From the IMG/VR virus record IMGVR_UViG_3300021178_000018, positions 1 to 47,371 of that record: a DNA stretch of 47,371 nucleotides. One strand, given 5' to 3'. Position 1 is the stretch's first letter, and each line of letters opens with the position of its first letter. Under the pieces are notes generated by a model. That model made no database searches and was not told the origin of the DNA. It was given only the letters and a program-made list of their open reading frames with translations. A program made the translations under genes and the position numbers. Shown piece by piece: positions 3,781 through 43,691 of this stretch. Origin of the DNA: a virus.

Positions 3781-3812
3781 AGGTAACATTCCCTGCTTCT
3801 GTTACCTTTTTT
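3781..3812 (+). terminator. Rho-independent terminator
   Basis: Perfect 8-base stem AGGTAACA/TGTTACCT with an 11-base loop, followed on the plus strand by a run of T. It would end transcripts of the lysis cluster. The T run overlaps the TTG start proposed for the recombinase, so read-through or a separate leaderless promoter may express that gene. Confidence 0.75.
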
Positions 3813-4356
3813 GATTGTTTTGCGGGAATCAAACCTCACCCAAGACGAGCTCTTGGCCCTCCTGTGCGCGGCGCGCGCGCACCGCGAGCGCGACTGGCTC
3901 ATGATCCTGGTCGCTTACTGGCACGGACTCAGAGCCTCGGAAGTCGTGAACCTCAAAGCACATAGCGTCACGGACGGATTTATCACCGTGCGCCGGCTGA
4001 AGAAATCCTTGAAGACCACGCAGCAACTGATTCGACATCCCAATCCTCTTTTAGACGAGGGGGCGCTTGCGGAGTACGCGCGCAATCAAAGCGGAAATCA
4101 AAGACTGTTTCCGGTGTCCCGGGTCCAGTTTTGGAGGCTCATCCAGAGGTATGCAGGGGCTTCCGGCCTGCCAAAACGGAAGGCTCATCCGCACGCGCTC
4201 AAGCACACGATTGCCATACAAACCATTCATTCTGCGGGCATTGAGAACACCCGCCAGTGGCTCGGACATAAGAGCATGGCCAGCACCGGCGAGTACCTTC
4301 GGGTGAGCGATCAGGACGCTGGGAAGGCAGTTCAGAAGGCTCTTGGTGGCGTTTGA
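3811..4356 (+). CDS. Small tyrosine recombinase (integrase)
   Basis: A 181-residue protein consisting almost only of the catalytic domain; the usual N-terminal DNA-binding (SAM-like) domain is missing, as in FimB/FimE-size recombinases. Catalytic elements in order: Arg in YWHGLRASEVVNL, Lys in the RRLKKSLKT hairpin, HALKHT (box II with Lys where most members have Arg), LGHKSM, and the Tyr nucleophile in STGEYLRV. The start is a TTG at 3811 or at 3820, both inside or just after the terminator T run. It could integrate the phage or resolve dimers. The tRNA-like sequence at 46232-46383 is a candidate attachment target. Its end overlaps terS (GTTTGATT). Confidence 0.8.
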   Translation: MIVLRESNLTQDELLALLCAARAHRERDWLMILVAYWHGLRASEVVNLKAHSVTDGFITVRRLKKSLKTTQQLIRHPNPLLDEGALAEYARNQSGNQRLFPVSRVQFWRLIQRYAGASGLPKRKAHPHALKHTIAIQTIHSAGIENTRQWLGHKSMASTGEYLRVSDQDAGKAVQKALGGV

Positions 4357-4733
4357 TTCCCGACGAAATCAAACCAATCAAAGGCCGCGGCGGCGCCGGC
4401 CGCGGGCAGGGGCGCAAGCCCAGCATTGCCAAGGTCGTTAAGGCCGCGATCGCACAGGCTGTATTTCGCATTTGGGGCGGCGAGGCTCAGGCGTGGGGCG
4501 CGTTAGCCCAAAAGATATCCGAGACCGGCGACCTGCGGCTTCTGTTCGAAGTGCTGCGGTACTGGACCGACCATGAACACGGCAAAGCGGGAATGCGCCT
4601 GGACGTAAGCGGTAAGATTGAGCATGAACACACCACCCTCGACGCCTATACCCCCGAGGAGCTCGAAAGTCTTAGACAGCTTGCGGAGATTGCCATCGCC
4701 CGCGCAAATTCTGGACGAGTGCTGCCGTCGTGA
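4353..4733 (+). CDS. terS: Terminase small subunit
   Basis: A 126-residue protein starting at a TTG that overlaps the stop of the recombinase. The N-terminus is basic and Gly-rich (KGRGGAGRGQGRKPS), as expected for DNA contact. A helical middle (IAQAVFRIWGGEAQAWGAL) and an acidic C-terminal tail (YTPEELESLRQLAEIAIAR) complete the usual small-subunit layout for DNA recognition and recruitment of the large subunit. It is identified by this architecture and by lying directly in front of, and overlapping, the large subunit. The exact family is not recognised. Confidence 0.7.
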   Translation: MIPDEIKPIKGRGGAGRGQGRKPSIAKVVKAAIAQAVFRIWGGEAQAWGALAQKISETGDLRLLFEVLRYWTDHEHGKAGMRLDVSGKIEHEHTTLDAYTPEELESLRQLAEIAIARANSGRVLPS

Positions 4734-5295
4734 TCCCTTATATTGGGCGCAGAACTGGACCAAAACCGAGAATCCGCACTACGTCCAGCAGGGTTTGGAG
4801 TTTCGCGCGCCGTTTCCGCGCAAAAGCTACTTCCGACCATTATTCGATGCCCTGAAAGAGGAAGAACGGCTTTTCATCTGCAAATCACGTGAGATGTTGA
4901 GTTCGTGGGCTGTGATGATATTTGCGGCTCATGAGGCCCAATGGTTCAAAGCTGAGGTTGTGGTTCAGACCGACAGTGAACAGAAGGCCAAAGAGTTGGT
5001 TTCGTATGGCGAATGCTTGTACCGAAACCAAGAAACATGGTTGAAGCAACTGCACCCGTTGAAGTCCGCAGCAAGCGCGCTCTCGATCGAGTGGGAGGAA
5101 GGCGGACGCATTTTCGGGATTCCTCACGGCCAGCACAAGCTACGTTTATTTCACCCAACAATCGTTATTTTTGATGAAGCTAGTTTCCTCCCGGAGTTTG
5201 AGGCTTGCTACAACGTGGCCCAGCCCGTCGCAAAGAAAATTATTGCCGTGAGTAGCGCAGGCCCCGGGGCGTTCGCCGATCAATGCTCAGTCTAG
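4618..5295 (+). CDS. terL: Terminase large subunit, ATPase half (split gene)
   Basis: A 225-residue ATPase domain of a phage large terminase, ending abruptly. Seen in order: DPLYWAQNW near the start, an Arg/Lys-type Walker A-like element (ICKSREMLSSWAVM), Walker B with catalytic Glu (PTIVIFDEASF, about residues 181-189) and the coupling motif IAVSSAGPG, followed by AFADQCSV and a TAG. Large terminases normally continue into an RNase H-like nuclease domain. Here that domain is encoded 4.3 kb downstream at 9561-10502 in another frame. The start is uncertain: TTG 4618 overlaps terS by 115 bases, and TTG codons at 4681 or 4690 would suit better. No frameshift or intein motif is seen at the break. 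Confidence 0.85.
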   Translation: MSMNTPPSTPIPPRSSKVLDSLRRLPSPAQILDECCRRDPLYWAQNWTKTENPHYVQQGLEFRAPFPRKSYFRPLFDALKEEERLFICKSREMLSSWAVMIFAAHEAQWFKAEVVVQTDSEQKAKELVSYGECLYRNQETWLKQLHPLKSAASALSIEWEEGGRIFGIPHGQHKLRLFHPTIVIFDEASFLPEFEACYNVAQPVAKKIIAVSSAGPGAFADQCSV

Positions 5296-5804
5296 CGCCC
5301 ACATTCGATGGTCGCCGAACCGTGCCCTCAAAGGAAGTCACCGACCTGATGCTGGAGCTTTTGCAGTTGACGCCGCAGGACAAGGTGATGGAGATTGGAA
5401 CGGGGTCAGGCTATCAGACCCGCAGGCTGGCCCAGACCGGAGCCGAAATTCACAGTATCGAACTGGAGCCTTATGTTGACCCGACGATCCCTTTTGGCGA
5501 ATGCGTTTACCTCTATCATCGGGATGGCTTTCTGGGGCTGCCGGAAGTTGCTCCCTTCACGGCCATCGTTGCAACCTGTGGGCTCACCGAAATTCCCGCC
5601 GCCTGGGTGGATCAGCTACGGCCCGAGGGACGTATCGTCGTGCCTATCGGACGAGCAGATGCACAACGTTTGGCGCTTTTCACAAAGTTACAAGGCCACG
5701 TTTCACCCAAGCGCATAGCCGCCTACGTCCGTTTCCAGATGATGCGCGCGCCCGACGAGCGCAAACCCCTTAAGCCCGTCTACAAAGACCGACCCGAAGA
5801 ATAA
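5283..5804 (+). CDS. Protein-L-isoaspartate O-methyltransferase-like protein
   Basis: A 173-residue class I SAM methyltransferase, shorter than the usual 200-220 residues. The repair-methyltransferase pattern is visible: SKEVTDLMLELLQLTPQDKV, the SAM motif MEIGTGSGYQTRRLAQ, then RDGFLGLPEVAPFTAIVATC, IPAAWVDQLRPEGRIVVPIG. The N-terminal segment before the TVPSKEV region is nearly absent and the loop after motif I is short. The family repairs isoaspartate in aged proteins; in a phage it might modify virion or host proteins. Its ATG lies inside the last codons of the terL ATPase half in another frame, so it begins exactly at the point where terL is interrupted. Confidence 0.75.
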   Translation: MLSLAPTFDGRRTVPSKEVTDLMLELLQLTPQDKVMEIGTGSGYQTRRLAQTGAEIHSIELEPYVDPTIPFGECVYLYHRDGFLGLPEVAPFTAIVATCGLTEIPAAWVDQLRPEGRIVVPIGRADAQRLALFTKLQGHVSPKRIAAYVRFQMMRAPDERKPLKPVYKDRPEE

Positions 5805-5827
5805 ACCAAAAAGAGAACCGAACCCTT

Positions 5828-7609
5828 ATGCGCAAACTAAGCGTATTCGCGCTGGTGTGCCTGTGCGTCATTACCGCGCGGGCTCAAACGCCGCCCCAGA
5901 ACTTCGGTGCAAGCAACGGCCCTCCGTCAGCGACTCTGCCCAACTCCGGCGTGGGAACACACTGGTTCGATACCGTGACCAACACGGAGTATGTCTGCAG
6001 CGCCGTGACGCTCGTTAACTCTCAGCCTACCTGCAGCTGGACAACAATCGGAGGCGCAACTTCCAATCCCTCCTCCCTCAACAACATCAAGTTTGCGAGC
6101 CAGTTTGCGGGTGGAGACTGCGGGGCAAAGATTAATGCCGCGGATACTGTTTTGGGTATCAAGGGCGGCCAGATTTGGGTGGATCATACCTGCGGAACGA
6201 CCTGGACAACCCAACCGGTGCTCCACAACTCTCTTGTCTTCGTTGATGATTTTCGCGCGAACCTTTCCGGATTGGCTTGTCCTCTCCTGGTCTCTGCTGG
6301 TGGGATTATCCTTCAAGGTTTGGGCCTTGATAATTCCAATGGCTCACAGATCGCCACTTGGATTGACGGCACAAATTGTACGGCTGGACTTGATGTCGTC
6401 TCCGTTCTGGGAACCACACCGAACCGTCTCGCAGGTGTCATCATCAAGGACATCTTTATTACCGGCGCAAACAACGCCCGCTATTGCCTCCGATTTGAAA
6501 AAGTGGACCTGCTCGACGTAGAACAGACCGAGATGAATAACTGCGCCACGGCAAATGTCTATGGGGTGGACAGCACCGGAGACTTTTTCAAGAACGATCG
6601 CTTCGCCACAATACCCGCGAATGGCTTGGTGCTGGACTGGGGTACGGGACAATTCACTGGCTCTGGTCTGATCTTTGAAAGCCAGGTCTGCGAGACGGGA
6701 CCGCAATTAACGATTCAGGGATCGGGATCGGGACAGAGTTTCTATGGAACGACCATGCAGGCGGACGGCTGCGGCGCCGGAACGTGGGCGGGATTCGTGC
6801 GCGTATCGGGATTCGATACCAACTCCGCTTTCGCGGGCGCGCCAACCGGCGGCGCTGGCGCTCCGGTAGGTCCGGGCTTTTACAATCTGAACGTGAACGT
6901 GGTGAATGGCGGAAATCCTACGCAGGGAGCAGATTTTCTATGTAATGGAACAGCGACGAATCCACCCCAAGATGTGACCCTTGTTCAGCCGCAAGACTTC
7001 GGAAGTTCGGTATCCAACATCGCCTTCAAGTCGGATAACTGCAAAGGCCTCAAGATCATCAGCGGGTTTTCCAATGGACACAGCGTAGCCACACTTAACG
7101 TCACAAATAATTCTTATTTCGCGCAAATGTTCGCGGTCACCTCTCTCGATACTGCGCGAACATCCGGCACAACCACCGGCATGGTTGACATTTACGAAGC
7201 GGTCAGCGGACAGGAACAACATTCCAACTCCATCCAATCCACGCTGATGCTGGCCAATCAAGGCACACCCTGCGCCAACGGCAACATCGCTCTGTCTGGT
7301 GGATGGGGAACCACGGCAGCCCCAACGGCAGCGGCGGGTACCGGCCAAACCTGTCAGTGGACGATTACCTCTAGCGGTACAGGTCAAGCGACGAACGCCA
7401 CGATTACTTGGACGCTACCTAATCCTCTGCCTGCTGCGACCACTGTTTGCAACGCGCACTTTCAAGGCGGCACTGGAATGGCAGCGTTATCTGGCGCTGG
7501 CCTGTTCATAAATCAGACCACACTGTCGGCTACTGCGCCCGTCTTCACGTGGGCCGGACTGCCGGTTGCAGGATCAACTTATCTCGTGCAATTACAATGT
7601 GGACCTTAG
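5828..7609 (+). CDS. Secreted beta-helix / tail-spike-like protein
   Basis: A 593-residue protein with a clear signal peptide (MRKLSVFALVCLCVITARA followed by Q). Next is a WFDTVTNTEYVC-type head, seen in phage fibre proteins that describe a product sheet. A Gly/Asn/Thr-rich body with alternating hydrophobic residues follows, typical of a right-handed beta helix, and the C-terminal domain is rich in beta strands. Cys residues are frequent, which fits an exported protein with disulphides. It could be a depolymerase or adhesin. As a virion fibre it would have to be assembled in the cytoplasm, which conflicts with a functional signal peptide. It lies within the 4.3-kb segment that splits terL. 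Confidence 0.6.
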   Translation: MRKLSVFALVCLCVITARAQTPPQNFGASNGPPSATLPNSGVGTHWFDTVTNTEYVCSAVTLVNSQPTCSWTTIGGATSNPSSLNNIKFASQFAGGDCGAKINAADTVLGIKGGQIWVDHTCGTTWTTQPVLHNSLVFVDDFRANLSGLACPLLVSAGGIILQGLGLDNSNGSQIATWIDGTNCTAGLDVVSVLGTTPNRLAGVIIKDIFITGANNARYCLRFEKVDLLDVEQTEMNNCATANVYGVDSTGDFFKNDRFATIPANGLVLDWGTGQFTGSGLIFESQVCETGPQLTIQGSGSGQSFYGTTMQADGCGAGTWAGFVRVSGFDTNSAFAGAPTGGAGAPVGPGFYNLNVNVVNGGNPTQGADFLCNGTATNPPQDVTLVQPQDFGSSVSNIAFKSDNCKGLKIISGFSNGHSVATLNVTNNSYFAQMFAVTSLDTARTSGTTTGMVDIYEAVSGQEQHSNSIQSTLMLANQGTPCANGNIALSGGWGTTAAPTAAAGTGQTCQWTITSSGTGQATNATITWTLPNPLPAATTVCNAHFQGGTGMAALSGAGLFINQTTLSATAPVFTWAGLPVAGSTYLVQLQCGP

Positions 7610-7611
7610 TT

Positions 7612-7794
7612 TTAGTTTAACGCCGCAGGTCTGGCCTTTGAAAACTGAGCGCAATCGCAGCGCGAGCAGGATTCCACGTCTTCGCCGATGCGGTGAAGTT
7701 CCCGAGCGTGCCCGCAGGTGCATTTGTCCTGGGTCCAGATCTTGTACAGTTTTGCTTTCCTCAGGAATTGCCACCATTTCAATTGTTCGCTCAC
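7612..7794 (-). CDS. Small zinc-binding protein
   Basis: A 60-residue minus-strand protein from a GTG at 7794 with a GGAG about ten bases upstream. The Cys/His arrangement CTCGHARELH, then SCSRCDCAQF gives a compact zinc site of the kind often seen in small phage proteins. The same arrangement (C.CGH....H...C, then C.C..F) is present at 40126-40341, so the two are probably related. The function is unknown; single-site zinc proteins of this type may bind nucleic acid or host proteins. It is oriented against its neighbours, and its 3' end abuts the end of the beta-helix gene within two bases. Confidence 0.6.
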   Translation of the reverse strand: MSEQLKWWQFLRKAKLYKIWTQDKCTCGHARELHRIGEDVESCSRCDCAQFSKARPAALN

Positions 7795-7981
7795 GGTAAG
7801 TGACTCCAGTGGTTCCGGGGCGAGCCTAACACAAATGCTTCCCTTCGCCGAAAGAACCGACTGAGCAGGCGCAGGCGGCGGACGCGGGAATTCATACCCG
7901 CATCAGAGAAGAACATCTGATCTTCCTAAGCCCCTAGTTCGGGGTGCAGAAGCGCGCGGCGAGCGGGAACGCCTGCATAAC
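7795..7981. other. Noncoding gap with three adjacent hairpins
   Basis: No supported reading frame. Three short inverted repeats follow each other: GCGGG/CCCGC (7884-7888 with 7897-7901), ATCAGA/TCTGAT (7902-7907 with 7916-7921) and CCCC/GGGG (7931-7934 with 7941-7944). On the minus strand the first two faintly recall the T and anticodon arms of a tRNA, but their loops have eight bases and no matching acceptor stem is found. It lies upstream of both flanking genes. Confidence 0.35.
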
Positions 7982-8506
7982 ATGAAACGAGCTTTCCTCA
8001 TCACCCACACCGAAACCGCCATGGACAAACAGGGCCGAGTCCACGGCCATCTCGATCCGCCGCTGTCGTCTTCCGGCCGGGTCAAAGCGAAGCAGATCGC
8101 CAAGAGCATGAGGAACAAAGGCATCAAGCGGATTCATTCCTCCCCACTCGCAAGAGCCAGAGAACTAGCGGCAATGCTGGCTAAGGAAACCGGCGCGCCC
8201 GTGATTGTGGCCCTTCAACTGACGCCGTGGGATTTGGGCAATATGTCGGGAGCGAAACTCAGCGCCATCAAACCCGTTATGGATTTCTTCAGCGCGCGTC
8301 CCAATCGACCGATACCCGGGGGCGAGTCCAAGGGAACATTTCTCGGCCGCTATAAAGACTTCGCGCGAAAGATCGAGCCGGGCGATGCAGTTGTGGCCCA
8401 TTCCCAACACAACCTGACCTGGGACTATGTGCAGAACGGCGGCGATGCCTCGAAGGTGCCGATGACCGGCACCAAGCCCGGAACCGTGAAGGAGCTAAAG
8501 ATATGA
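7982..8506 (+). CDS. Histidine phosphatase (phosphoglycerate mutase-like) protein
   Basis: A 174-residue protein of the histidine-phosphatase superfamily: FLITHTETAMDKQGRVHGH at the N-terminus, then PLSSSGRVKAKQIA, IHSSPLARARELA, GESKGTFLGRY and VVAHSQHN near the C-terminus. The usual phospho-acceptor motif Arg-His-Gly is Thr-His-Thr here; the His is kept, but the Arg that binds phosphate is lost. Other expected residues (Arg in the HSSPLARAR block, Glu in GGES, His in VAHSQHN) are present. Activity may be altered or the protein may be structural. It heads a run of overlapping genes leading to the second half of terL. Confidence 0.7.
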   Translation: MKRAFLITHTETAMDKQGRVHGHLDPPLSSSGRVKAKQIAKSMRNKGIKRIHSSPLARARELAAMLAKETGAPVIVALQLTPWDLGNMSGAKLSAIKPVMDFFSARPNRPIPGGESKGTFLGRYKDFARKIEPGDAVVAHSQHNLTWDYVQNGGDASKVPMTGTKPGTVKELKI

Positions 8507-8901
8507 TTTACAAGAAGAAAATGCCCATCACCGGGACCAACACGGCGATGAAGTCCAAGCCTCCGGTGAAATCCAGCCCCTTCACGTCGCGGGATGCGCA
8601 AAAACAGGTCAACCAGCCCCCGCAGCCCTTCGCCAATCCTCAAGGTGCTATGCAGACATCGACCTCCAGCGGCCCTCCGGGCGGCGTGTCGACAATGGAA
8701 CCAAAGATCGCCTCGGGCTTGAGGCACACAAATCCAGGCGCCAAGGCTCTGCCATCCGGAGGTGCTGTGGGCTACAAGAAGCTGCCCAACCAATCCAAAC
8801 AAATCGGCGGTCGGCTCGGCGTGAAACCAACTCCGCGCAAGGCCGGCAACAACACCAGCGGCCAGCCCAACAACCGAAATGCGAGGTTCTATGGCGAATA
8901 A
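8503..8901 (+). CDS. Disordered basic protein with C-terminal FYGE
   Basis: A 132-residue protein overlapping the upstream gene by ATGA. It is rich in Lys, Pro, Gly, Ser, Gln and Asn, with almost no hydrophobic core, so it should be intrinsically disordered. The last residues are ARFYGE; the next gene ends AAFYGEF and the gene at 24420-24650 ends NPFYG. A shared C-terminal tag on otherwise unrelated low-complexity proteins suggests a docking or packaging signal, which is inference. The function is unrecognised. Confidence 0.6.
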   Translation: MIYKKKMPITGTNTAMKSKPPVKSSPFTSRDAQKQVNQPPQPFANPQGAMQTSTSSGPPGGVSTMEPKIASGLRHTNPGAKALPSGGAVGYKKLPNQSKQIGGRLGVKPTPRKAGNNTSGQPNNRNARFYGE

Positions 8902-9349
8902 ACGCACTCAGAAAGCGGTTCCAGCGGCCGAACATGGAGCAGTTCCGGGTGACGGCTCAGGATCTCGACCTTACATGCAGATGCCCACCAAGGGCGGACG
9001 CAACGCCACCACCAACGAATCCCGCAGGGGGGCCGGAGGCATGGCCCCCAAACCCTCGGGGGGCGCGGCATTGCCCGGGAACGATCGCCCGTCGATGCCC
9101 GTCCAAGCCGGCCTAGCCCGGGTCAAGCCCTTCGGAGGGGCCCCCTCTGCGGGCAGCCATTTGCCTGTGCAGAACAACGCCATGCGCAATCAATCTGGTG
9201 GGGCCGTCGGGCAGCAGGAACAGGTTGCGCCCGGTCCCGGTACGAGCTTCAGTCCCATGACCCGCACTTCACCTGTGAAGAATCCGGTCGCCACCAACAA
9301 ATCGGCCACGCGCAAGACCAAAGGCGCGGCCTTCTATGGGGAGTTCTGA
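8891..9349 (+). CDS. Disordered Gly/Pro-rich protein with C-terminal FYGEF
   Basis: A 152-residue protein from the ATG at 8891, overlapping the end of the previous gene by 11 bases. Its composition is Gly, Ala, Pro, Asn, Arg and Lys, with repeated GGA/GGR segments and no predicted fold. It resembles the preceding gene in composition and in its end (KTKGAAFYGEF), so the pair may have arisen by duplication. The function is unknown; a minor virion or DNA-associated protein is possible. Confidence 0.6.
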   Translation: MANKRTQKAVPAAEHGAVPGDGSGSRPYMQMPTKGGRNATTNESRRGAGGMAPKPSGGAALPGNDRPSMPVQAGLARVKPFGGAPSAGSHLPVQNNAMRNQSGGAVGQQEQVAPGPGTSFSPMTRTSPVKNPVATNKSATRKTKGAAFYGEF

Positions 9350-9537
9350 TGGCTAACATCTATCGCGTGCTCTACTCAACCAAGAACGGCCCGCAACACG
9401 CGCAAGCGGTTCTCGTCAGCGCAACGACCGTTGCCAATGCCGCGGCCGCAGTCATGGCGGCTGACGGCAAGTTCACCGACATCACCAGCATCACGCAAGT
9501 TCCGGTTCCGGGCGGCAACATCATCGTTGGCAGCTGA
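9349..9537 (+). CDS. Small hypothetical protein
   Basis: A 62-residue protein whose ATG overlaps the upstream stop (TGATGG). The N-terminus MANIYRVLYSTKNG forms likely beta strands, followed by an Ala/Val-rich helix and ITQVPVPGGNIIVGS. The gene at 31389-31667 begins similarly (FRVNYYIGGNSVTAYV) and shares an Ala-rich helix, suggesting distant kinship. The function is unknown. Its stop codon lies in the first bases of the REP-like hairpin at 9536-9560. Confidence 0.55.
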   Translation: MANIYRVLYSTKNGPQHAQAVLVSATTVANAAAAVMAADGKFTDITSITQVPVPGGNIIVGS

Positions 9538-9560
9538 CCCGTTCGACTGCGCTCAGGGTC
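9536..9560. repeat. REP-like hairpin at the edge of the terL interruption
   Basis: GACCC and GGGTC arms enclose the core GTTCGACTGCGCTCA. It fills the gap exactly between the stop of 9349-9537 and the ATG of the terminase nuclease half at 9561. The same core occurs at 1226-1263 and 40531-40552. Confidence 0.7.
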
Positions 9561-10502
9561 ATGGAAGTCACATTTCCCCACCCGGGGATGAGTTCCTGGA
9601 AGAACCCGCACGGCATCCGCATTCTGCGTCTTCACTACTCAGCCGATCCCGAGAAAACACCAGAATGGGCCGCCAAGCAAAAAGCGGAGATGACCAATCC
9701 CGCCGACTACGAGCAGGAATACGAGATCAACTTCTCGGCCAAACTCGGCACGCTGATCTATCAGCTTCACGATGAAGCCACGCTTGAACACTCATTCCCC
9801 ATCCCGGAAACCTGGACCCGGTACTTCGCGCTCGATCCCCATCCAGTTGTGCCTCACGCTGCCCTGTGGATCGCCGTTGATAAGTGGGGCGACGCCTGGA
9901 CCTATCGGGAACTATGGCCTAGCAAGATTTACGGACAAAGAGGCTCTATACCGGAGGATGACAACCGATTCTCGATCAAGCAGTTCGTCGAAACAATCCG
10001 ATGGCTCGAATCGAGAGAGAACCCGGAAAACGAAGGCCGCGACGAAGATATATACAAGCGAGTGATTGATTATGCAGCGCGGGCCATGGGCCAGGGATTC
10101 TTCGACGACAAGCCCGAGTACAACTTTCAGGAGCGCTTCGAAGAGTTAGGCCGCTGGCACTTCGACGATTCGATCAAGGATCACCAGGCCGGTTACGAGG
10201 CTGTGAACGAATGGCTGAAGCCACGCGATGTCGAACAGCCTGACGGCAGTTTCAAACCCAAATCGAGAGAGCACATCTTCCAAGATAAGTGCCCTGAGTA
10301 TGTCTACGAACTCAAGACTAATCGCTTTCAGCAACTCACGCCCTTGATGTCAGAGCGCTCAGACCCCACGGGAAAGCCTATGGCCAAACGGAATCACCTA
10401 ACCGACTGCCGCAGATATCTAGCCATGGCCGGGCTTGAATACATTCCCCATCGCAGATTGCAAAGCACCTGGAAACCAATCGCCAAAGGAGTGAACTACT
10501 AA
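9561..10502 (+). CDS. terL: Terminase large subunit, nuclease half (split gene)
   Basis: A 313-residue protein matching the C-terminal part of a large terminase. It has the linker ILRLHYSADPEKTPEW, the block YEQEYEINFSAKLGTLIYQ, then the RNase H-like nuclease strand YFALDPHPVVPHAALW with its first Asp, further acidic residues in the middle, and the C-terminal NHLTDCRRYLAMAG. The linker block normally follows the SSAGPG motif by a few tens of residues, so this is the missing part of 4618-5295. The ATG at 9561 directly follows a REP-like hairpin. No strong ribosome site is seen; GAGG-like bases are absent and only AGGG lies in the hairpin. Both halves look intact, so function in trans is plausible. 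Confidence 0.85.
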   Translation: MEVTFPHPGMSSWKNPHGIRILRLHYSADPEKTPEWAAKQKAEMTNPADYEQEYEINFSAKLGTLIYQLHDEATLEHSFPIPETWTRYFALDPHPVVPHAALWIAVDKWGDAWTYRELWPSKIYGQRGSIPEDDNRFSIKQFVETIRWLESRENPENEGRDEDIYKRVIDYAARAMGQGFFDDKPEYNFQERFEELGRWHFDDSIKDHQAGYEAVNEWLKPRDVEQPDGSFKPKSREHIFQDKCPEYVYELKTNRFQQLTPLMSERSDPTGKPMAKRNHLTDCRRYLAMAGLEYIPHRRLQSTWKPIAKGVNY

Positions 10503-10826: not shown

Positions 10827-13100
10827 ATGGCCTCCAGTACCGGCGGTATCCCTGGCGCAAGCCAGTCCGCCCCAGGCGGACCGCCTACAAATCCCTCCGC
10901 ACAAGGCGGACCGGAAGCGGGCAGGAAGCGCAAATCCAAGCGCACGCCCGAGAACGTTGCGGATATTCTCGACCGCCGCAACGAAAGCCGTCGTTACGCT
11001 CAGGTGAACTTTTGGGATGCCTGGGAGGACGTCTATCGGGCCTCGAAATGCCGCACCAAGCCCATCATGGTGACGGATAAGAACGGCGCTCAGGTCGAGG
11101 ACAAGACCAGAACCAACGTGGCGATGCCGGAATTGAGTCTGATTATCCGGCGCAAGACGGCGAGGCTTACGGCGAATCCTCCGCAGATCAATTACACGGT
11201 CCCGGCGGGAGGCGATACCGACTTAGGCGAAAAGCTTACGGCCTGGGCCTATCAGCAATTCGACAGGTCTGGTGAATCCCGCGAACACCGCAAGACGGTG
11301 CAATCCTCGCAGACCTTCGGCTGGGCGGTCTCCAAGCTCTATTGGGACACGGTAGAGGTCGAGAGGAAGCTGTTTCGTTCCTTCGACAAAGACAGCCCGC
11401 AATCCGCTACTCGTTCCGATTTGCGGCAGCTTGATCCCAATACTCCTGACGGCGATGAAGCACTGACCGACGACGAACGCACCAGCGCCATCGCTCAATA
11501 CGGAAACACAACTCAGGTTCCGCAGAAGACCAAGCAGTTCGAAGGCCCGGTTTGCAAGAACGTCTTCATTGGCGATTTCTTCATGGAGCCCGGCGCCGCT
11601 TACCTCGACGTTTCCGGCTGGTGCGTCGAGAACTACTTCGAGTCCGATGTATGGCTCAAGAAGTACGCCCAGAAGACCTACATCGACCCCGACACGCAGC
11701 AGGAAGTTCCGCTGTTCGATCCCAAGGCGATTCAGGAACTCGCCGACATGCCTTCCTGGCAGCCGCAGTTTCAACAGCAGCCCTTCGATTTGCGCGCCCG
11801 ATTGCGCACGAACGCTCTGGGCCAAACTCAACCGCTGTGGCCGACCAAGCTGCTGAAAGGCAAGCGCTACGATATTCTCGAATGCCACACCAAGGACAAG
11901 GACGGGCAATTCTGGATCGAGTGGGTGGGCAATGAAAAAGTCTATCTCGGCAAAATGCCATATCCCTGGGACCTCTACGGAAAGTACTGCTACACGGAAA
12001 TGGTGCCGATGTTTGATCTTCTATCCGCTTACGGAGACTCATCTCCACTGCTGTTTCGGCATCTCTGGCTCCTCCACAACGCTATTGTTGGTTCACGGCG
12101 CGATCTGGTGGCGAACATCCTACGGCCCTTGATGAAGGCCATGCCGAATCTGGACATTGCCGACGAACAGGTCGACCGCGCGCTTTTCCGCATCATCACC
12201 ATGCACGATCCCAATGGGTTGCAACCTTTGATCGAGGACATGTCCGGTATCGCGGGAGCTATTCAAGCTGCCGGCGAAGAGGAAGCGCAGAACATGCGCA
12301 TGATGGCTCTGGCCGAGCCGAACCTTACCAATGTCGAGACGGGCACTGACTCGAATCCCCAAGCGGGAAAGACAGCAACGACTGCGGTACTCGCTGCAAA
12401 AAGCGCCGACGCCCTCACGCAATTCGAACTCGATTCGCTCAACTGGTACTTCAAGGATACCGGCGAAAAGAAGCTGGCCATGCTCCAGCAGGTCGAGCCC
12501 GAACAAGGCGAAGACGGTAATTATCAGCCTTACGAGATCAGTGGCAAATATACCGGACAAGTTGAAGGACTGACCGAGCGTTACGGAAAAGCCAGTGTCG
12601 CCAAGCTAGATTTCATGGAGTTGCAGCAAGAGATTCAGGTCGAACCAGCGGCCATGTCCATGCTGTCGATCGACGACGATATCAGACAGGCAGGCGCATT
12701 GAAGCTCGTGGAGATGGCTGGCCAGATGCCGGGAATCGTAGACCCGCACTATGCCGCGCATTTCTACGCCACGACCATCAGAGGCATCGATCCCGATAAA
12801 GCCGTGCCGCCCCCGAAGCCTCAACCACCGCCGCCACCGAAGATCACCATGACGGTTGCCGCGAAGGTCGACGCGCCCGCAGACGTACAGGCGGCTTTGT
12901 GGCAATCGGTCACAGGCCAACCGCTTTCACCGCAGGATCAGCAAGAGATCGCGCACGACACGACTTTGCGCGGAGTTGTAAAGCTCTCTCAGGCCGGAGA
13001 TGCCGCGGACAACCTCATGTCCACCAAGTCGGTGGACGACGAACCAAGCACGCCGATGTCGAAGGGTGTCGGCAACTCTAATCCCTCTAGCAAGAAATGA
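10827..13100 (+). CDS. Portal protein (P22-like)
   Basis: A 757-residue protein, the right size for a P22-type portal. After a Pro/Gly-rich N-terminal tail come RRNESRRYAQVNFWDAWEDV, then IIRRKTARLTANPP and the beta-rich body. Also present are IDPDTQQEVPLFDP, WPTKLLKGKRYDIL and a long stem/crown region. The C-terminus has a Pro run (PPPPKITM) and a helical tail. The portal forms the dodecameric DNA channel at the capsid vertex and docks terminase. Its place between terL and the scaffold/capsid genes is standard. The next gene overlaps its stop codon. Confidence 0.8.
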   Translation: MASSTGGIPGASQSAPGGPPTNPSAQGGPEAGRKRKSKRTPENVADILDRRNESRRYAQVNFWDAWEDVYRASKCRTKPIMVTDKNGAQVEDKTRTNVAMPELSLIIRRKTARLTANPPQINYTVPAGGDTDLGEKLTAWAYQQFDRSGESREHRKTVQSSQTFGWAVSKLYWDTVEVERKLFRSFDKDSPQSATRSDLRQLDPNTPDGDEALTDDERTSAIAQYGNTTQVPQKTKQFEGPVCKNVFIGDFFMEPGAAYLDVSGWCVENYFESDVWLKKYAQKTYIDPDTQQEVPLFDPKAIQELADMPSWQPQFQQQPFDLRARLRTNALGQTQPLWPTKLLKGKRYDILECHTKDKDGQFWIEWVGNEKVYLGKMPYPWDLYGKYCYTEMVPMFDLLSAYGDSSPLLFRHLWLLHNAIVGSRRDLVANILRPLMKAMPNLDIADEQVDRALFRIITMHDPNGLQPLIEDMSGIAGAIQAAGEEEAQNMRMMALAEPNLTNVETGTDSNPQAGKTATTAVLAAKSADALTQFELDSLNWYFKDTGEKKLAMLQQVEPEQGEDGNYQPYEISGKYTGQVEGLTERYGKASVAKLDFMELQQEIQVEPAAMSMLSIDDDIRQAGALKLVEMAGQMPGIVDPHYAAHFYATTIRGIDPDKAVPPPKPQPPPPPKITMTVAAKVDAPADVQAALWQSVTGQPLSPQDQQEIAHDTTLRGVVKLSQAGDAADNLMSTKSVDDEPSTPMSKGVGNSNPSSKK

Positions 13101-13445: not shown

Positions 13446-14549
13446 ATGCCTAGCGATATAACCGACGCTCCCACACAGGACGCGATAGCCGAATCGCTTC
13501 TTGGACCCGAAGAACAGCCTGTTGAGCAACCCGTAGCCGAGCAACAGCCTGAGACTCCGGTTGAGGAGCAACCCGTTGAACAAGAGCAGCCACAAGAGCA
13601 GCCGGAAGCGGTCGAGAACTGGCTCCCTAGCGAGCAGGACAAGACGTTCTCCGAGGAAGCTCTGTCGCGCTACGCCCAGCGGTACGGCTTCGATGAGCAA
13701 AGCCTGACTAACCCACAGTTGCGGCAGCTTATCGTAGACAAGATCAACTCTGACATCTTCATTCATCAGCAGCAGCAACTAGAAGCGGAACAATTCGTCG
13801 AGCCCGAGCCCCAGCCGGAACCCACCCGGACACAGCCCGAGCTAACGAGAGAGCAGTATTTCCAGCAACTCGATCAACTGGTTTCACAGCGGACAGACCC
13901 CAATGTGGCCAAGGATTTCTATACCGGCTTCATGAAGGTCTTCGGCGTTCCCGATCAGGAAATCGCCAAGAACGCCGCACAGGCTGTGCCGTTCACGCAG
14001 TTGATGACCAAATACGCTCTCAACATGGTCAATTCGTTCCTGCCCGATTTCCTGCAGGCGCAACTGGCCACCCAGATCAGCCAAGCTTTTCCCGGCTTCG
14101 GTGAGATGTACGAACGAAGTTCCTACGCGATGGCCTGGGACCGCGTTCGCAATTCGAATCCCGTCTATGCGGACCTTCCCGCCTATGGCTCCAAGCAATT
14201 CAGCCAGCAGCTCAGGGAAGCGGCCGCCAAGATACCGGGGTTCGATGAGATGCAGTTCACCGACGGGCAAGGAAGACCTTTATCGCCCATGGAAAACTCC
14301 ACGCGCAAGTACGGAATGCTGGCGCAGGCGATCAAGGGGCAGATCACTCCCGAACTGTTAAATCAAGCTGTTGCTGCAAAGACGAAAAGTATACGGAGAG
14401 CCGAAGTCCGGCGATCCGCAGGCCAACTCGGCTCCGGGCAATCCACAAGAGCGTCAGGCGGTTCAGGCTCGGGAAGGTTCCAATCGAACTCCGATCTGTT
14501 CGACGAGGAGACGATGGAACGCTATCAGAACGAGCACGGACGGCTCTGA
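13446..14549 (+). CDS. Scaffolding-like protein
   Basis: A 367-residue acidic protein directly before the major capsid gene. The N-terminal part is a low-complexity Glu/Pro/Gln/Val region (residues about 20-60), followed by LPSEQDKTFSEEALSRYAQ and a second Gln/Pro region. A helical core includes YTGFMKVFGVPDQEI, and the Ser/Gly-rich C-terminus ends ETMERYQNEHGRL. Acidic, helical, low-complexity proteins in this position are typically scaffolds that guide procapsid assembly. A strong ribosome site (AAAGGAGAAGTAA) precedes the ATG. The assignment is by position and composition rather than by a recognised domain. Confidence 0.65.
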   Translation: MPSDITDAPTQDAIAESLLGPEEQPVEQPVAEQQPETPVEEQPVEQEQPQEQPEAVENWLPSEQDKTFSEEALSRYAQRYGFDEQSLTNPQLRQLIVDKINSDIFIHQQQQLEAEQFVEPEPQPEPTRTQPELTREQYFQQLDQLVSQRTDPNVAKDFYTGFMKVFGVPDQEIAKNAAQAVPFTQLMTKYALNMVNSFLPDFLQAQLATQISQAFPGFGEMYERSSYAMAWDRVRNSNPVYADLPAYGSKQFSQQLREAAAKIPGFDEMQFTDGQGRPLSPMENSTRKYGMLAQAIKGQITPELLNQAVAAKTKSIRRAEVRRSAGQLGSGQSTRASGGSGSGRFQSNSDLFDEETMERYQNEHGRL

Positions 14550-14567: not shown

Positions 14568-15785
14568 ATGACACTTCAAGTCTCACGCAGTTTCGATCAG
14601 ATGGTCACGGACACGACCAACGTCCGCGACGTGTCCGAGCAGATGGTCTTGCTCGAACCCGATGCGGCTCCGCTGTTCGTTCTGACCAATGCGGCCAAGC
14701 GAAAGCAGCCGACGATTGGGCCCCGCTTCGAATGGGTGGAAGACACCGAAGTCAGTCTTTGGGGACAGTCCTCGGCAGCGGCCGATTGGTCAAGCGTGGC
14801 CACGTCAATTCTCGTGGTGGACGGAACTCTATTCGGGGTCGGCGATATCGTTGCCGTGCCCAAGATTCAGAGTTCCAACGCGGCCCCGGAAGTCTTTCTC
14901 GTGACCGCCATCTCCACCAACACCCTAACCATCACCCGCGCTATCGGAGGCTCCGGCGCCGACACCATCGGCATGACCGCCTCACTACGTATTCTCGCCA
15001 GCGCGTTCAAGGAAGACGACAACATCGGCCAACAGCGCTACACCTCGAAGACCGCCCAGATCAGCTATGCGCAGATCTTCAAGACGCCGGTCAAGGTGAC
15101 ACACACCGCGGCCTCAACCAAGCAGTACGGCGCTCCGCAAGGTGAACGAAAGTTTCAACTTGTGAAGGCGCTCATCCGTCACCGCTCGGAAATCGAAGCG
15201 GCCGGCCTGTGGTCCCGCGCTTCGGAGTCTCTGGCTCTGCCCTCTTCGCGCTGGACGACAATGGGCTGGCTGCCTCGCATCGCCACCAACAAAACCGATG
15301 CGGCCACAACCGCGACGATCACCACTTGGAACACATTCAGCGAGACTGCCTTCCGCTACGGCGAAAAGCAGAAACTACTGCTCTGCGCTCCCAAGGTGAT
15401 CTCGGCGCTCAACTTCTATTCGCAAAACAAGCTATTGACGCGAGTGGGAGATACCGTGTTCGGGGTCAAGATCGCCCGCTTCGAGATGGCTCTGGGGGAA
15501 TTCCTGCTGGCCAACGATTACCGCTTGGGGACCGGCGATATCGGCTATCCCGGCGGCAATACCTACAACTTCGCCACGCACGCCTACTCGATCGATCTGC
15601 CTTCAGTGGCGATTCGCTACCTGAACGGCGGGGGCGACAACCTCATCGGAGACACCAAGCTGTTCGAGAACGTGCTGCCTGACGGCTCGACAACTAGGAC
15701 CGACGAGTACCGCAGTCAATTAGGATGGGAGCATCGCCACGAGAAGAAGCACGCGTGGCTATTCGATTTGAGCGCCTATCAGTAG
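14568..15785 (+). CDS. Major capsid protein (SU10/DUF5309-like)
   Basis: A 405-residue protein with features of the DUF5309/SU10 major-head family: MVLLEPDAAPLFVLTNA near the start, RFEWVEDTEVSLWGQ, a beta-rich insert, and KTAQISYAQIFKTPVKVT. These are followed by RKFQLVKALIRHRSEIEAAG with WSRAS, and LLCAPKVISALNFY. The HK97-like fold is inferred from family knowledge. A good ribosome site (TTAGGAG) precedes the ATG. It is the last gene before a strong terminator, consistent with the high expression expected of a capsid gene. Confidence 0.85.
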   Translation: MTLQVSRSFDQMVTDTTNVRDVSEQMVLLEPDAAPLFVLTNAAKRKQPTIGPRFEWVEDTEVSLWGQSSAAADWSSVATSILVVDGTLFGVGDIVAVPKIQSSNAAPEVFLVTAISTNTLTITRAIGGSGADTIGMTASLRILASAFKEDDNIGQQRYTSKTAQISYAQIFKTPVKVTHTAASTKQYGAPQGERKFQLVKALIRHRSEIEAAGLWSRASESLALPSSRWTTMGWLPRIATNKTDAATTATITTWNTFSETAFRYGEKQKLLLCAPKVISALNFYSQNKLLTRVGDTVFGVKIARFEMALGEFLLANDYRLGTGDIGYPGGNTYNFATHAYSIDLPSVAIRYLNGGGDNLIGDTKLFENVLPDGSTTRTDEYRSQLGWEHRHEKKHAWLFDLSAYQ

Positions 15786-18353: not shown

Positions 18354-19538
18354 ATGACCCCTCAATGCCAGGAGTGGATTGCCTTCTGCGTCAAGAAATA
18401 TCCCTGCAAGGGAGACGTGCTGGAAGTGGGCAGCTTCGACGTGAACGGCAACCCGCGAGATCACTTCAAGGACCGCGAAAGATTCCAGACCTATACCGGC
18501 ATCGACATGCGGGAAGGGCCTTGCGTGGACCAGGTGATGAATACGCAGGCGATGGAGTTTCCCGACAACGCTTTCGATGTGATCGTGGACGCCGAGCGCA
18601 TGGAGCACGACTCGCGCTTCTGGCTGACCATCAAGGAACTGTTCCGCGTCTGCCGGCCCGGGGGACACCTGATCGTAACGACCCGAAGCTGGGGAGCATT
18701 TCCGCCTCACGACTACCCCTCCGATTACTGGCGCTTCATGGACAACGGGCTCAGGGACCTCTTGGAATACGGCGGCTTCGAATGTCTCGCCACGGCTTAC
18801 GGCGAGCGCTGGCAAGCGGGAGACAGGGCCGTGTTTGCCATTGGAAGAAAGCCGATTACAAACGGCAAGAGCAAGGACTTCTCCATCGTGATTTTGTCCA
18901 GGAATGCAGCGAACCTCGTTCCGTGCGTGCAGGCCATTCAGAAGAACGAGCCTGATTTCCCGATGGAGCGGATTGTCGTCGTGGATGACGGTGCCAGAAA
19001 AGAAGCCGAGCGGCACTTGCCTGAAGAAATCACCTGGGTCAGTGGTTCAAAGCCTTTTGTGTTCGCGCGCAACGCAAACATCGGAATAGCCAAAGCCAAT
19101 TCGGACGTGATCCTGCTCAACGACGATGCGCTGCTTCTGAACAAGAATGGCTTGACCAAACTTTCGAAGTGCGGCCCTGGAATCGTTTCCGCTGCGATTC
19201 ATGGTCTCGTGGGCAACCGTAATCAAGCACCTCAATGCGTCGGCGTCCGCCCTGAGTACAAAATGCTCTGCTTTATCTGTGTCTTCATTCCAAAGTCAGT
19301 GCAAGAAAAACTTGGCCCTCTAGACGAGCGGTTTACCGGCTACGGATTCGACGATGACGATTACTCAAAGCGAGCCGTGGAGGCCGGGATTCCGCTTTCG
19401 GTCTTCGATGGCTGCCTTGTCGATCACTCCGGAACGCCAACCTTTAGAAGTCGTGATGGCTGGGTCGATCTGATGCGCCAGAACGAAAGTCTCTTCAAGG
19501 AGAAATACCCATCGTCCGCACAGAGATCATCGAGTTAG
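18354..19538 (+). CDS. SAM methyltransferase fused to a GT2-like glycosyltransferase
   Basis: A 394-residue two-domain protein. Residues about 1-165 are a class I SAM methyltransferase (GDVLEVGSFDVNGN motif I, FDVIVDAERMEHD, RPGGHLIVTTRSWG). From about residue 175 a family-2-like glycosyltransferase begins (FSIVILSRNAANLV, RIVVVDDGAR, FARNANIGIAKANSDVILLN with DD, ERFTGYGFDDDDY). The fusion suggests that a sugar is both attached and methylated. It follows another glycosyltransferase and lies between capsid and tail genes. Targets are unknown: capsid, tail or a phage-made glycan are all possible. Confidence 0.8.
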   Translation: MTPQCQEWIAFCVKKYPCKGDVLEVGSFDVNGNPRDHFKDRERFQTYTGIDMREGPCVDQVMNTQAMEFPDNAFDVIVDAERMEHDSRFWLTIKELFRVCRPGGHLIVTTRSWGAFPPHDYPSDYWRFMDNGLRDLLEYGGFECLATAYGERWQAGDRAVFAIGRKPITNGKSKDFSIVILSRNAANLVPCVQAIQKNEPDFPMERIVVVDDGARKEAERHLPEEITWVSGSKPFVFARNANIGIAKANSDVILLNDDALLLNKNGLTKLSKCGPGIVSAAIHGLVGNRNQAPQCVGVRPEYKMLCFICVFIPKSVQEKLGPLDERFTGYGFDDDDYSKRAVEAGIPLSVFDGCLVDHSGTPTFRSRDGWVDLMRQNESLFKEKYPSSAQRSSS

Positions 19539-23333: not shown

Positions 23334-23733
23334 ACCTCTCGATTTCCTGGGCCAGCAGGGCGCGCTCCTCGAACCGGCGGACCCCAAGCTCCACGATGCT
23401 GCCGTCGAGTTCTGCGCACGCAATCTCCGCGACCAGGTAAACCTCTCGAAATTCGCAAAGGTCTGGGTGGGGCTAAAAGATGAATACGTTTTTGGTATCG
23501 CTGGATACGTACTACGCCCGGATATTCCGTTATTCCGGGCAACCGACGCGGACGTACTTCGAGCGCTTGGGTATCGACTCAACTCCTTCTTCTCCGACAA
23601 CGGCTGTCGAGGCACACAAGTCTTTATCCACATCGGCAACGAATCCCCCGACCAGCGCTGCCCCGAGTGGAGACAAGTCTTGAAAGAGTTCGGGGCGCAA
23701 TCGGGACGAAGAGTTTTGGTGGAGGTGCGATAG
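23314..23733 (+). CDS. GNAT-like hypothetical protein
   Basis: 139 residues from the ATG at 23314. Segments LHDAAVEFCARNLRDQ, KVWVGLKDEYVFGIAGYV, DADVLRALGYRLNSFF and TQVFIHIGNES suggest the alternating beta-alpha order of a GNAT acyltransferase-like fold, but the acetyl-CoA loop (Arg/Gln-x-x-Gly-x-Gly) is not clear, so it may be inactive. It lies between tail genes and the internal Gln-rich protein, overlapping both. The role is unknown. Confidence 0.5.
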   Translation: MAVIQIKPLDFLGQQGALLEPADPKLHDAAVEFCARNLRDQVNLSKFAKVWVGLKDEYVFGIAGYVLRPDIPLFRATDADVLRALGYRLNSFFSDNGCRGTQVFIHIGNESPDQRCPEWRQVLKEFGAQSGRRVLVEVR

Positions 23734-24410
23734 TGGGGGGAGGACCATCCGCGCAGCAGAACGCCGCGGCGCAATCACAGGCGAATTTAACCAATCAGCT
23801 CGCCCCGATGTTCGGGCAGCAGTTCGGTTTCCAGCAGCAACAGCAGCAATCCGCCAATCCTTTCTACAAGAACCTTATGCAGAACGGCTCGCCGTTCTAC
23901 CAGAACCAGATGCAGAACGGCAACCCTCTTTACGCGCAGGTCGCGCAGCAGGGAATGCCGAATTACAACAACATGGTGGATGCGGCCTCGGGCAATACCG
24001 CGCAGGCTTTTGCTCCAGCCAAGGCGGGCCTCGAGCAGCAACTCGGCCAAAGTGCGAATGCGTTGCCTTCCGGTTTCGCGCAGCAAGCCAGAACCGATTT
24101 GGCTTCGCAGCAAGGACGAGCTTTCGATCAGCAGTTGCAGGGCGCGCAGCAACAGAACTTCCAGGCCAAGATGGGCGCGACAGGCGCGCAGTTGGGGGCG
24201 CAACAAGCCGGCGCCGCTGGTCAGTACGGATTGCAGCAAGCCGGAGCGGGCGGATTGTTGGGGCAAGCGCAGATTGCTAACCCGCTCGGCTATGCTGGCG
24301 CGGCGCAGCAGGGCAACAACTCGATCATGCAAGCCCCGCTGGCATCTCCAGGACTCGCAGGCTTGCTGGGCGGAATTGGCGGGGGACTGGCTTCCGCTCT
24401 GCCGTTCTAG
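23733..24410 (+). CDS. Gln/Ala-rich internal or ejection-type protein
   Basis: 225 residues from a GTG at 23733 that overlaps the upstream TAG, with GGAGG nine bases before it. It is Gln, Ala, Asn and Gly-rich with short repeated phrases (KNLMQNGSPFYQNQMQNG) and helical stretches (RTDLASQQGRAFDQQLQ). It ends with a Gly-rich hydrophobic tail (LAGLLGGIGGGLASALPF) that may insert in membranes. Proteins of this type after the tail hub in podoviruses are often ejected with the DNA, which is the best inference; no family is recognised. Confidence 0.6.
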   Translation: MGGGPSAQQNAAAQSQANLTNQLAPMFGQQFGFQQQQQQSANPFYKNLMQNGSPFYQNQMQNGNPLYAQVAQQGMPNYNNMVDAASGNTAQAFAPAKAGLEQQLGQSANALPSGFAQQARTDLASQQGRAFDQQLQGAQQQNFQAKMGATGAQLGAQQAGAAGQYGLQQAGAGGLLGQAQIANPLGYAGAAQQGNNSIMQAPLASPGLAGLLGGIGGGLASALPF

Positions 24411-24419
24411 GAGACGAAT

Positions 24420-24650
24420 ATGGGAGCACTGGCCCCAAACGCGATGAAGGTAAACGGGACGAACGGCCTCAGTGCCGGTGACGCTCAGAATATGGGCTGG
24501 AACCAAGGCGACATCCAGCGCGCCGGCACAACTCCGAACATGTGGCAGAACCTTGTGAAAGGCGGCGCGACAGGATTAGGCCAGGGATTGCAAACCATCG
24601 GTCAGCAACAAAACCGGATACAAGGACCAAGGAACCCGTTCTATGGGTAG
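24420..24650 (+). CDS. Small disordered protein with C-terminal FYG
   Basis: A 76-residue protein with ribosome site GGAG before the ATG. It is Asn, Gly and Gln-rich without a hydrophobic core and ends PRNPFYG. This end is shared in form with 8503-8901 and 8891-9349. Its stop overlaps the next gene (ATGGGTAG). The function is unknown; it probably accompanies the ejection-type proteins around it. Confidence 0.55.
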   Translation: MGALAPNAMKVNGTNGLSAGDAQNMGWNQGDIQRAGTTPNMWQNLVKGGATGLGQGLQTIGQQQNRIQGPRNPFYG

Positions 24651-41794: not shown

Positions 41795-42328
41795 ATGAAT
41801 TATTACCTATATCTCGAATCTGACGTCTGGCGACGACGCAGAGCGCGTTTTTTAAGGTGCCATTTCTTATGCCATAAGTGCGGCTGCGACTTGCGCCGTT
41901 GGATGGGGAATCGGTTGCCATCGCACGTCCATCATATCAGCTACGCCAATTTTGGACACGAGCCCGACACGGACCTAATGGCGCTCTGCGAGCCCTGTCA
42001 TTGGCTGATCGAGTCTGGCAAGGGAAATCAATTTTGGGTTCGAGGGGCAAATACAACACCCCTGAAGGCCACAAGCCTAGCTTCCGTCCTTGCAATCGTC
42101 ACCGAATCCATCCGACCGGAGCATCGGCTGGGAATGAACGTAGCCGAGGAGATTTATAAGCGCTGTGGACTCCCAGCCGATCACGACAGGCTTATACGGG
42201 CGATTCAAACCATCATTACCGAATCTGTGGAGCGGAAGGTCCGTTACCCCACGATTGTATTTATGAGGTTGCGGCAGCTACAGCGCCATGAATGGGCGCC
42301 AGATCCCAAGTCCGTTCAGGCGTGTTAG
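41795..42328 (+). CDS. HNH endonuclease with C-terminal accessory domain
   Basis: 177 residues from the ATG at 41795 (no clear ribosome site; TTG 41780 is an alternative). N-terminal HNH: LESDVWRRRRARFLR, CHKCGCDLR, HVHHISYANFGHEPDTD, LMALCEPCHWLIE, with two Cys pairs and the His-His core. The C-terminal domain (SLASVLAIVTESIRP, EEIYKRCGLPAD, RYPTIVFMRLRQLQ, EWAP) is shared with the separate gene 43368-43691. It overlaps the DNA methyltransferase region by a short gap. A nuclease beside a methyltransferase suggests a modification-dependent or protective pair. Confidence 0.75.
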   Translation: MNYYLYLESDVWRRRRARFLRCHFLCHKCGCDLRRWMGNRLPSHVHHISYANFGHEPDTDLMALCEPCHWLIESGKGNQFWVRGANTTPLKATSLASVLAIVTESIRPEHRLGMNVAEEIYKRCGLPADHDRLIRAIQTIITESVERKVRYPTIVFMRLRQLQRHEWAPDPKSVQAC

Positions 42329-42354
42329 TGAAAGACTTTTCCGAGGGGTGCGCG

Positions 42355-43371: not shown

Positions 43372-43691
43372 GCCTCCAATCCATTCTCGAGATCTTCACC
43401 GAGCTTCTCACCGACGAGGAGCGCAATTGGTTTCCGTTTGGCAACGAGGTCTACAAGTGCTGCGGCTCGCCGAGTGAAAGGCAGCAAATCGCTCAAGCCC
43501 TCGAAACCATGATGGCCGAATCCATCCGGCGCAAGAAACGCTACCCGCGGATCATCTTCAAGCGCCTGAAGCAGCTTCAGAAAGGCGAATGGGCTCCCGC
43601 AGTTCAACTCCAGCCACGGCCAGAACCTCAGATGAACCCCGCAGCCGTAGAGCGCTACTGGGAGCGGAGAAGGAAGAGGGTGGCAGGGTGA
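43368..43691 (+). CDS. Stand-alone accessory domain (paralogue of HNH C-terminus)
   Basis: 107 residues overlapping the methyltransferase stop. SLQSILEIFTELLTD, NEVYKCCGSPSERQQ, SIRRKKRYPRIIFKRLKQL, EWAP aligns with the C-terminal half of the HNH protein at 41795-42328. The C-terminus is basic (RYWERRRKRVAG). Both copies have the same order of conserved Tyr-Lys-x-Cys-Gly and Arg-Tyr-Pro-x-Ile. It may be a DNA- or partner-binding module. The GTG of the next gene overlaps its stop. Confidence 0.7.
   Translation: MSLQSILEIFTELLTDEERNWFPFGNEVYKCCGSPSERQQIAQALETMMAESIRRKKRYPRIIFKRLKQLQKGEWAPAVQLQPRPEPQMNPAAVERYWERRRKRVAG

Follow-up and report, generated by a model that had tools for sequence, protein, structure and literature searches.

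In the cultured and viable Arthrobacter phages of cluster AY, among them BillyTP (PP978841), the domains of the large terminase subunit (TerL) lie on two consecutive genes (PMC11920828, PMC12820723). The terL gene is also known to be interrupted by group I introns or inteins, as in the Jug phages (PMC12363816), Campylobacter phage IBB_35 (PMC3322345) and cyanophage Mic1 (PMC7156551). As for short peptides common to different proteins, the capsid targeting sequence of the T4 internal proteins is N-terminal and cleaved (PMC9026906), and the cargo loading peptide of encapsulins is a short, usually C-terminal peptide on unrelated proteins encoded near the gene for an HK97-fold shell (PMC7355545). 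Here we describe the terminase locus of a large group of uncultivated soil viruses of bacteria, starting from the IMG/VR virus record IMGVR_UViG_3300021178_000018, analyzed over its whole length of 47,371 bp (hereafter the window). Its terL is divided into an ATPase gene and a nuclease gene separated by a stretch of cargo genes, and many small basic cargo proteins of this group end in a common C-terminal tag. The split is a real, conserved form of the known two-gene terL; the tag was unexpected. Our literature search, which left most subscription journals outside its reach, retrieved no report of a two-gene terL parted by conserved cargo, nor of the tag.

In the window, the two terminase halves are encoded by separate intact open reading frames (ORFs) lying 4,265 bp apart. 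The ATPase ORF stops at position 5295, eight residues past the coupling motif SSAGPG, with AVSSAGPGAFADQCSV as its last residues before the stop codon, and the nuclease ORF starts at ATG 9561, with the linker sequence LRLHYSADPEKTPEWA about 20 residues in. A profile built from the ATPase halves found T4 gp17 with an E value of 5e-11, and the AF2 model of the ATPase chain (pLDDT 91) had T4 gp17 as its best match in the Protein Data Bank (PDB; E 5e-12, TMq 0.80). The profile of the nuclease halves matched the P22 large-terminase nuclease weakly, and the AF2 model of this chain (pLDDT 80) placed the P22 large-terminase nuclease domain (4dkw, E 2.2e-7) at the top of its PDB matches and the D6E terminase next. 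Close relatives keep the motifs KSRE(M), DEAxFLPE (FDEASFLPE in the window) and SSAGPG with little or no variation, and residues D92, D170 and D282 of the nuclease (window numbering) do not vary in 32 sequences. Sequence and fold together predict an ASCE ATPase with a P-loop variant, a Walker B DE pair and a coupling motif, and an RNase H-fold nuclease with three acidic residues; the P-loop is presumably of the deviant type with a lysine at its start, as in lambda gpA. What sets these proteins apart from a typical TerL is that the domains are not joined in one polypeptide, a variant architecture. These results bear out the first-pass annotation of the window, which had reported a terL split by about 4.3 kb, with an ATPase half ending right after the coupling motif, a nuclease half restarting at the linker and all motifs intact. 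The span it assigned from position 4618 holds as regards the split ORFs and less well at its left end: the predicted TTG start at 4618 is cast into doubt by a 116-nt overlap with the gene of the putative small terminase subunit (TerS), and conservation is firm only from about position 4708.

A search with the nuclease returned 12 contigs, all of which share the split; best-segment identity was 77-81% for 11 of them and 53% for the other. Profile searches followed this nuclease search, all from split sequences as starting points, and halves on separate genes with the same break point, always shortly past the coupling motif, are found in 54 IMG/VR records (window included), with near-duplicates among them. 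The space between the genes exceeds 1.2 kb in 41 records; in 12 others the genes overlap or lie no more than 701 bp apart, and in the last one their order is reversed. A 4-nt overlap of the terminase genes, without cargo, is found in L075, L077, L080, L081 and L082, and in L074 the genes are separated by 39 nt. In L083 the nuclease gene (7956-8831) lies upstream of the ATPase gene (9439-10128), with another ORF between them and a putative portal gene downstream. Profile searches with both halves in 18 records, including L078 and L083, found a single match to each half per record. Third codon positions vary most in both halves (51-67% versus 11-35% at positions 1 and 2), and both are under purifying selection. 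As for the uninterrupted terL that had been suggested as something to look for in relatives, the 12 nearest contigs have none, and one related sequence (two contigs; L078) is a single-chain terminase, with a linker, FRLHYSADPRKTPEWAAKKK, that resembles the start of the split nucleases. No prophage relatives were detected with the nuclease profile in 84,980 species genomes, and cultured phages gave distant matches only, to single-chain TerLs where annotated.

The first-pass annotation had also named two findings that would undo the split, a second complete terL and an assembly chimera. No second terminase was found in the window beyond the two halves, either with the profiles of both halves or with the Pfam families Terminase_6N, TerL_ATPase, Terminase_3 and GpA_ATPase. 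A chimera or a dead gene is very unlikely because the break is conserved in 53 other contigs from many metagenomes, the halves are present in single copies and change is concentrated at third codon positions. A recent insertion and a chimera are thus both rejected as sources of the split.

From lineage to lineage the cargo changes, whereas the break point stays constant. When cargo families were counted over 40 loci, the family of the 132-residue protein of the window, basic and of low complexity, was the commonest gap cargo (Table 1), followed by protein-L-isoaspartate methyltransferase (PCMT), present in all 12 nearest contigs and in about 20 loci counting tblastn matches, and then by histidine phosphatase, present in 13. 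Pfam searches gave a family to the repair methyltransferase and to the phosphatase that had been read from the sequence alone; the secreted protein keeps a signal-peptide-like start in a 593-residue ORF of no family, and the disordered proteins correspond to two basic low-complexity proteins, whose shared C-terminal tag had been missed. An internal start of the second of these (156 residues), at 8891, sits within the tag of the preceding 132-residue protein. Other lineages hold other genes: the gaps of L043 (1036-1884) and L044 (8582-9430) carry a radical-SAM gene instead (PHROG 9298), a family that is also matched in the window at 43589-44536, outside the terminase gap. The gap of L044 holds in addition an HNH endonuclease gene (9707-10207) that the near-identical sister L043 lacks, apparently through a recent insertion or loss, and genes therefore enter and leave the gap. 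At the right end of the window cargo, between the 62-residue ORF and the nuclease start, lies a short imperfect palindrome (9538-9562, GACCCGTTCGACTGCGCTCAGGGTC) that looks like a small repeat insertion; in many relatives this site is a GTGA/ATGA gene overlap.

The tag was counted in ORFs of at least 40 residues as F-aromatic-G within a few residues of the C-terminus. It occurred in 76 of the 373 sense-strand ORFs of the gaps, compared to 4 of 2,003 sense ORFs outside them and 10 of 2,850 minus-strand ORFs. In the consensus a K/R-rich stretch leads into (S/A)F[Y/F]G, and the next residue is E (49 cases), G (9) or D (8); this fourth tag residue ends the protein in 54 cases. The bodies that precede it fall into 14 sequence groups with a net positive charge in 75 of the 76 proteins; some are members of known small families or bear a weak resemblance to them, with a DUF6496 match above the cut-off and matches to DUF3008 and DUF6582 below theirs. 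A repeat at the DNA level was rejected, as the 76 tags are coded by 54 distinct 12-mers that use all four glycine codons, and with so many synonymous versions selection appears to act on the peptide. When the DNA pattern for KKxAF[YF]GE-stop was searched blindly in 2.9 million viral contigs, seven contigs were recovered, all of them members of the clade, and the tag pattern gave seven scattered matches in the 84,980 species genomes, about the chance level by our own estimate.

The distribution of the tag over whole records was compared between nine tagged genomes and four untagged split genomes. Each of the nine has one extra tagged ORF adjoining an 'MGGG' protein of the tail/internal block, with a low-complexity protein of about 500 residues after it in most genomes, and G004 has one further sense-strand match outside the gap, at another place. 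The four untagged genomes have no sense-strand tag anywhere in their records. Among the individual loci, L023 encodes a small tagged protein (4703-4891, ending SPKSFYGEK) just upstream of TerS, outside the gap, and in L025 a relative of the 132-residue cargo protein (6103-6594) has the ending LLYGD, which may be a weaker version of the tag.

Some genes of the window co-occur with the tag. Among them, those for the scaffold-like protein and for p247 are present in the eight other tagged genomes and were not detected in the untagged G010, which has the portal and major capsid protein (MCP) genes in common with them; the scaffold-like gene was not detected in the other untagged whole records either. 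Internal repeats of p247 (NPFYKN, SPFYQN) are similar to the NPFYG end of its tagged neighbor (24420-24650), and NPFY is also present in the p247 counterpart of several relatives. Regarding the other structural genes, the putative portal has no PHROG match, and the putative TerS has no family match of its own in Pfam and PHROG searches, although its counterpart at the same place in L023 (4891-5358) matches the PHROG terminase small subunit. Directly before TerS lies a short tyrosine recombinase-like gene (3811-4356, 181 residues, PHROG integrase), relatives of which are also found upstream of the terminase in L006 and L013. A DNA methyltransferase gene (42292-43371) and an ORF with methyltransferase- and glycosyltransferase-like matches (18354-19538) lie farther downstream.

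Table 1. Terminase, cargo and structural genes of the window, with the basis of each assignment
Feature	Coordinates	Strand	Basis and distribution
Putative small terminase subunit (TerS)	4353..4733	+	Position directly before ATPase
Large terminase ATPase chain	4618..5295	+	T4 gp17 profile and fold; PHROG 5989; conserved in relatives
PCMT, untagged	5283..5804	+	PF01135 E 2e-24, 87.3 bits vs cut-off 20.3
593-residue protein, signal-peptide-like start, no family	5828..7609	+	G002 the only one of 12 other whole records with a similar protein
Histidine phosphatase superfamily branch 1, untagged	7982..8506	+	PF00300 E 1e-22, 80.9 bits vs cut-off 21.7
132-residue basic low-complexity protein, tag NARFYGE at end	8503..8901	+	Family in 30/40 loci
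156-residue basic low-complexity protein, end GAAFYGEF (tag)	8879..9349	+	12/40 loci
62-residue ORF, no family	9349..9537	+	Similar ORFs in 7 loci
Large terminase nuclease chain	9561..10502	+	P22 nuclease fold; conserved in relatives
Putative portal protein	10827..13100	+	Position, size; next conserved gene downstream; conserved in 10 most similar whole records
Scaffold-like protein, candidate tag partner	13446..14549	+	Lies between putative portal and MCP; found in 8/8 other tagged whole records
Major capsid protein (MCP)	14568..15785	+	PHROG 1328 E 2e-13
p247, NPFY-type repeats, tail/internal block, candidate tag partner	23667..24410	+	Co-occurs with tag
76-residue protein ending PRNPFYG, sole tagged protein outside the gap in the window	24420..24650	+	Same position and similar ending in 9/9 tagged whole records

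A concatenated tree of 41 rows, with the single-chain terminases of L078 and MW202524 as outgroups, united 27 rows of the lineage of the window in one clade (support 88/74), with gaps of 1.3-5.3 kb nearly all of which hold tagged cargo. Nine rows formed a separate clade (100/100) in which the spacing goes from the 4-nt overlap to 701 nt and which includes the reversed L083, and L074, with its 39 nt, grouped with L043 and L044, which have 1.2-1.7 kb of other cargo. The arrangement of these clades therefore favors a fission that came first and cargo that came later.

The explanation that we consider probable as a whole is that of a two-chain packaging motor with an ancestral split, together with an encapsidation-like C-terminal tag on the gap cargo. 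The large terminase would consist of a gp17-like ATPase polypeptide and a separate RNase H nuclease polypeptide like that of P22, which would form one packaging motor either by non-covalent assembly or by each docking on the portal. The cut that turned terL into two overlapping, translationally coupled genes would date from an ancestor of a broad group of uncultivated phages, and the junction would then have become a permissive site where genes accumulate. That the motor works as two chains, one of the two options left by the first-pass annotation, is now well supported, short of proof, by the break kept in all 54 records, the purifying selection, the reversed order in one relative and searches that found no intron, intein or second terminase. 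In the lineage of the window the site would hold a cassette of small basic low-complexity proteins with a common C-terminal short linear motif, which may dock them on a component of head assembly, the candidates being the scaffold-like protein, p247 and the motor itself. The tagged proteins would become part of the particle, probably sharing the head with the DNA, and would be delivered along with that DNA. Such a docking or encapsidation signal fits the co-occurrence of the scaffold-like and p247 genes with the tag, the tagged protein of the internal block and the basic nature of the cargo, and the tag probably sends its proteins to one place in the virus particle. Only tentatively do we propose a wider role, in which the junction of the split terminase would be a cargo-loading island and the F[Y/F]G[E/G] tag, a signal not described before, would route proteins into the particle via a dedicated docking site as an evolvable means of delivery into the host.

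Several points weigh against this explanation. The tree has a weak root (67/39) and long branches that meet, and cargo may have been lost in the deep lineages. As the searches began from split sequences, single-chain relatives may be under-sampled. The enrichment of the tag in gap ORFs (Fisher p 6e-59) was calculated with loci treated as independent that are in fact related. The internal-protein block is named by position and composition, its proteins matching no PHROG or Pfam family. Finally, 33 of the 76 tags hold the start codon of the following ORF, and the motif may partly serve translation.

Among the alternatives, the tag could dock proteins on the terminase itself, as motor adaptors or DNA-condensing packaging factors, and not in the capsid interior. 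Nearly all tagged genes do lie between the two terminase genes and their products are strongly basic; however, every tagged genome has its extra tagged protein in the tail/internal-protein block, and the untagged split genomes have homologous motors without tags. We regard this placement as a reasonable though rather unlikely one. A second alternative concerns the origin of the break only: the split might have been made by a free-standing homing endonuclease, later lost, and not by a simple stop/start mutation. Phage genes in pieces are known to arise by this route, and the HNH gene of L044 shows that an endonuclease can reside in the gap. Nevertheless, this gene is the sole endonuclease seen and represents a tip event, the deep lineages with 4-nt overlaps have no endonuclease between the genes, and the cargo of the window has none between the halves, the other gaps having been scanned for part of the families. 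Such an origin is therefore unlikely.

It is also conceivable that the FYGE motif is a by-product of translational coupling, since TAT GGN or TTT GGN would provide the ATG or TTG start of the next gene. The 33 tags mentioned above contain the start of a following ORF of at least 45 codons, which in L037, L040 and L045-L049 is that of the nuclease. This could explain at most those 33, as the remaining 43 lack such a start, and in 39 of the 76 the second tag codon is TAC or TTC, from which none arises there. Moreover, conservation extends to the upstream basic stretch and the A/S residue, and other genes of these genomes rarely end in the motif. Coupling as the source of the motif is thus quite improbable.

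A rejoining of the halves by splicing, through an intron with cargo ORFs, a trans-splicing RNA or a split intein, would have precedents, since the terL of other phages can harbor inteins or group I introns (PMC12363816, PMC3322345, PMC7156551). In the window and four relatives, Rfam gave no match at the gathering score, with a chance-level snoRNA match as the only hit in the window region, and Pfam found no intein in either half; there is also no room for intein halves, as the ATPase stops a few residues past its conserved end and the nuclease starts at the linker. In several loci the gene that follows overlaps the ATPase stop or adjoins it, as the PCMT gene of the window does with a 13-nt overlap; the distance varies, and 4-nt overlaps of the terminase genes occur elsewhere. 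The reversed order of L083 rules out cis-splicing there and cannot be read as an interrupted gene. Splicing is consequently a most improbable explanation. Equally remote, and already largely refuted, is the other option of the first-pass annotation, a mobile element whose recent entry interrupted an intact terL and left the gene broken or rescued only by chance: the HNH gene that differs between L044 and L043 shows that genes move in and out of the gap, and the window cargo is partly unlike that of relatives (the 593-residue ORF), but the same break accompanies differing cargo in 54 records and is present without cargo in L075, L077 and L080-L082, both halves are conserved under purifying selection, and the window cargo has no transposase or recombinase match and no long or otherwise noteworthy repeats at its borders.

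In models of T4 gp17 and other terminases, movement between the ATPase and nuclease domains has a part in DNA translocation. A clade with both domains on separate proteins constitutes a natural experiment on the need for a covalent link. Split terL genes may escape annotation that expects a full-length TerL. If the tag is indeed an encapsidation or docking signal, it would offer a means of loading proteins into phage heads that can be tested and is possibly portable.

We compared the locus with the systems described at the outset. As in T4 gp17, the ATPase chain has the same fold and motif order, but gp17 is a single chain, whereas the nuclease here is a separate protein, closest by fold to the P22 nuclease domain. 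With the Jug phages, IBB_35 and Mic1 it shares a terL coding sequence in pieces; those pieces, unlike the ones in the window, carry introns, inteins or endonucleases, with splicing shown or inferred, and the searches of Rfam and for inteins revealed no splicing element at the break. The tag resembles the T4 capsid targeting sequence as a short common peptide on small, variable, basic phage proteins; it differs in sequence and in being C-terminal instead of an N-terminal peptide cleaved by the prohead protease, and its role is a proposed one. It is also like the encapsulin cargo loading peptide, short and C-terminal on unrelated proteins, with a different sequence and candidate binding partners. 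In the AY phages the ATPase and nuclease domains also lie on separate genes. The break in BillyTP appears to fall between the linker and the first nuclease motif, close to the latter, in consecutive genes that overlap by 17 nt without cargo, whereas here it falls before the linker and up to 5.3 kb of cargo, 4.3 kb in the window, lies between the two genes.

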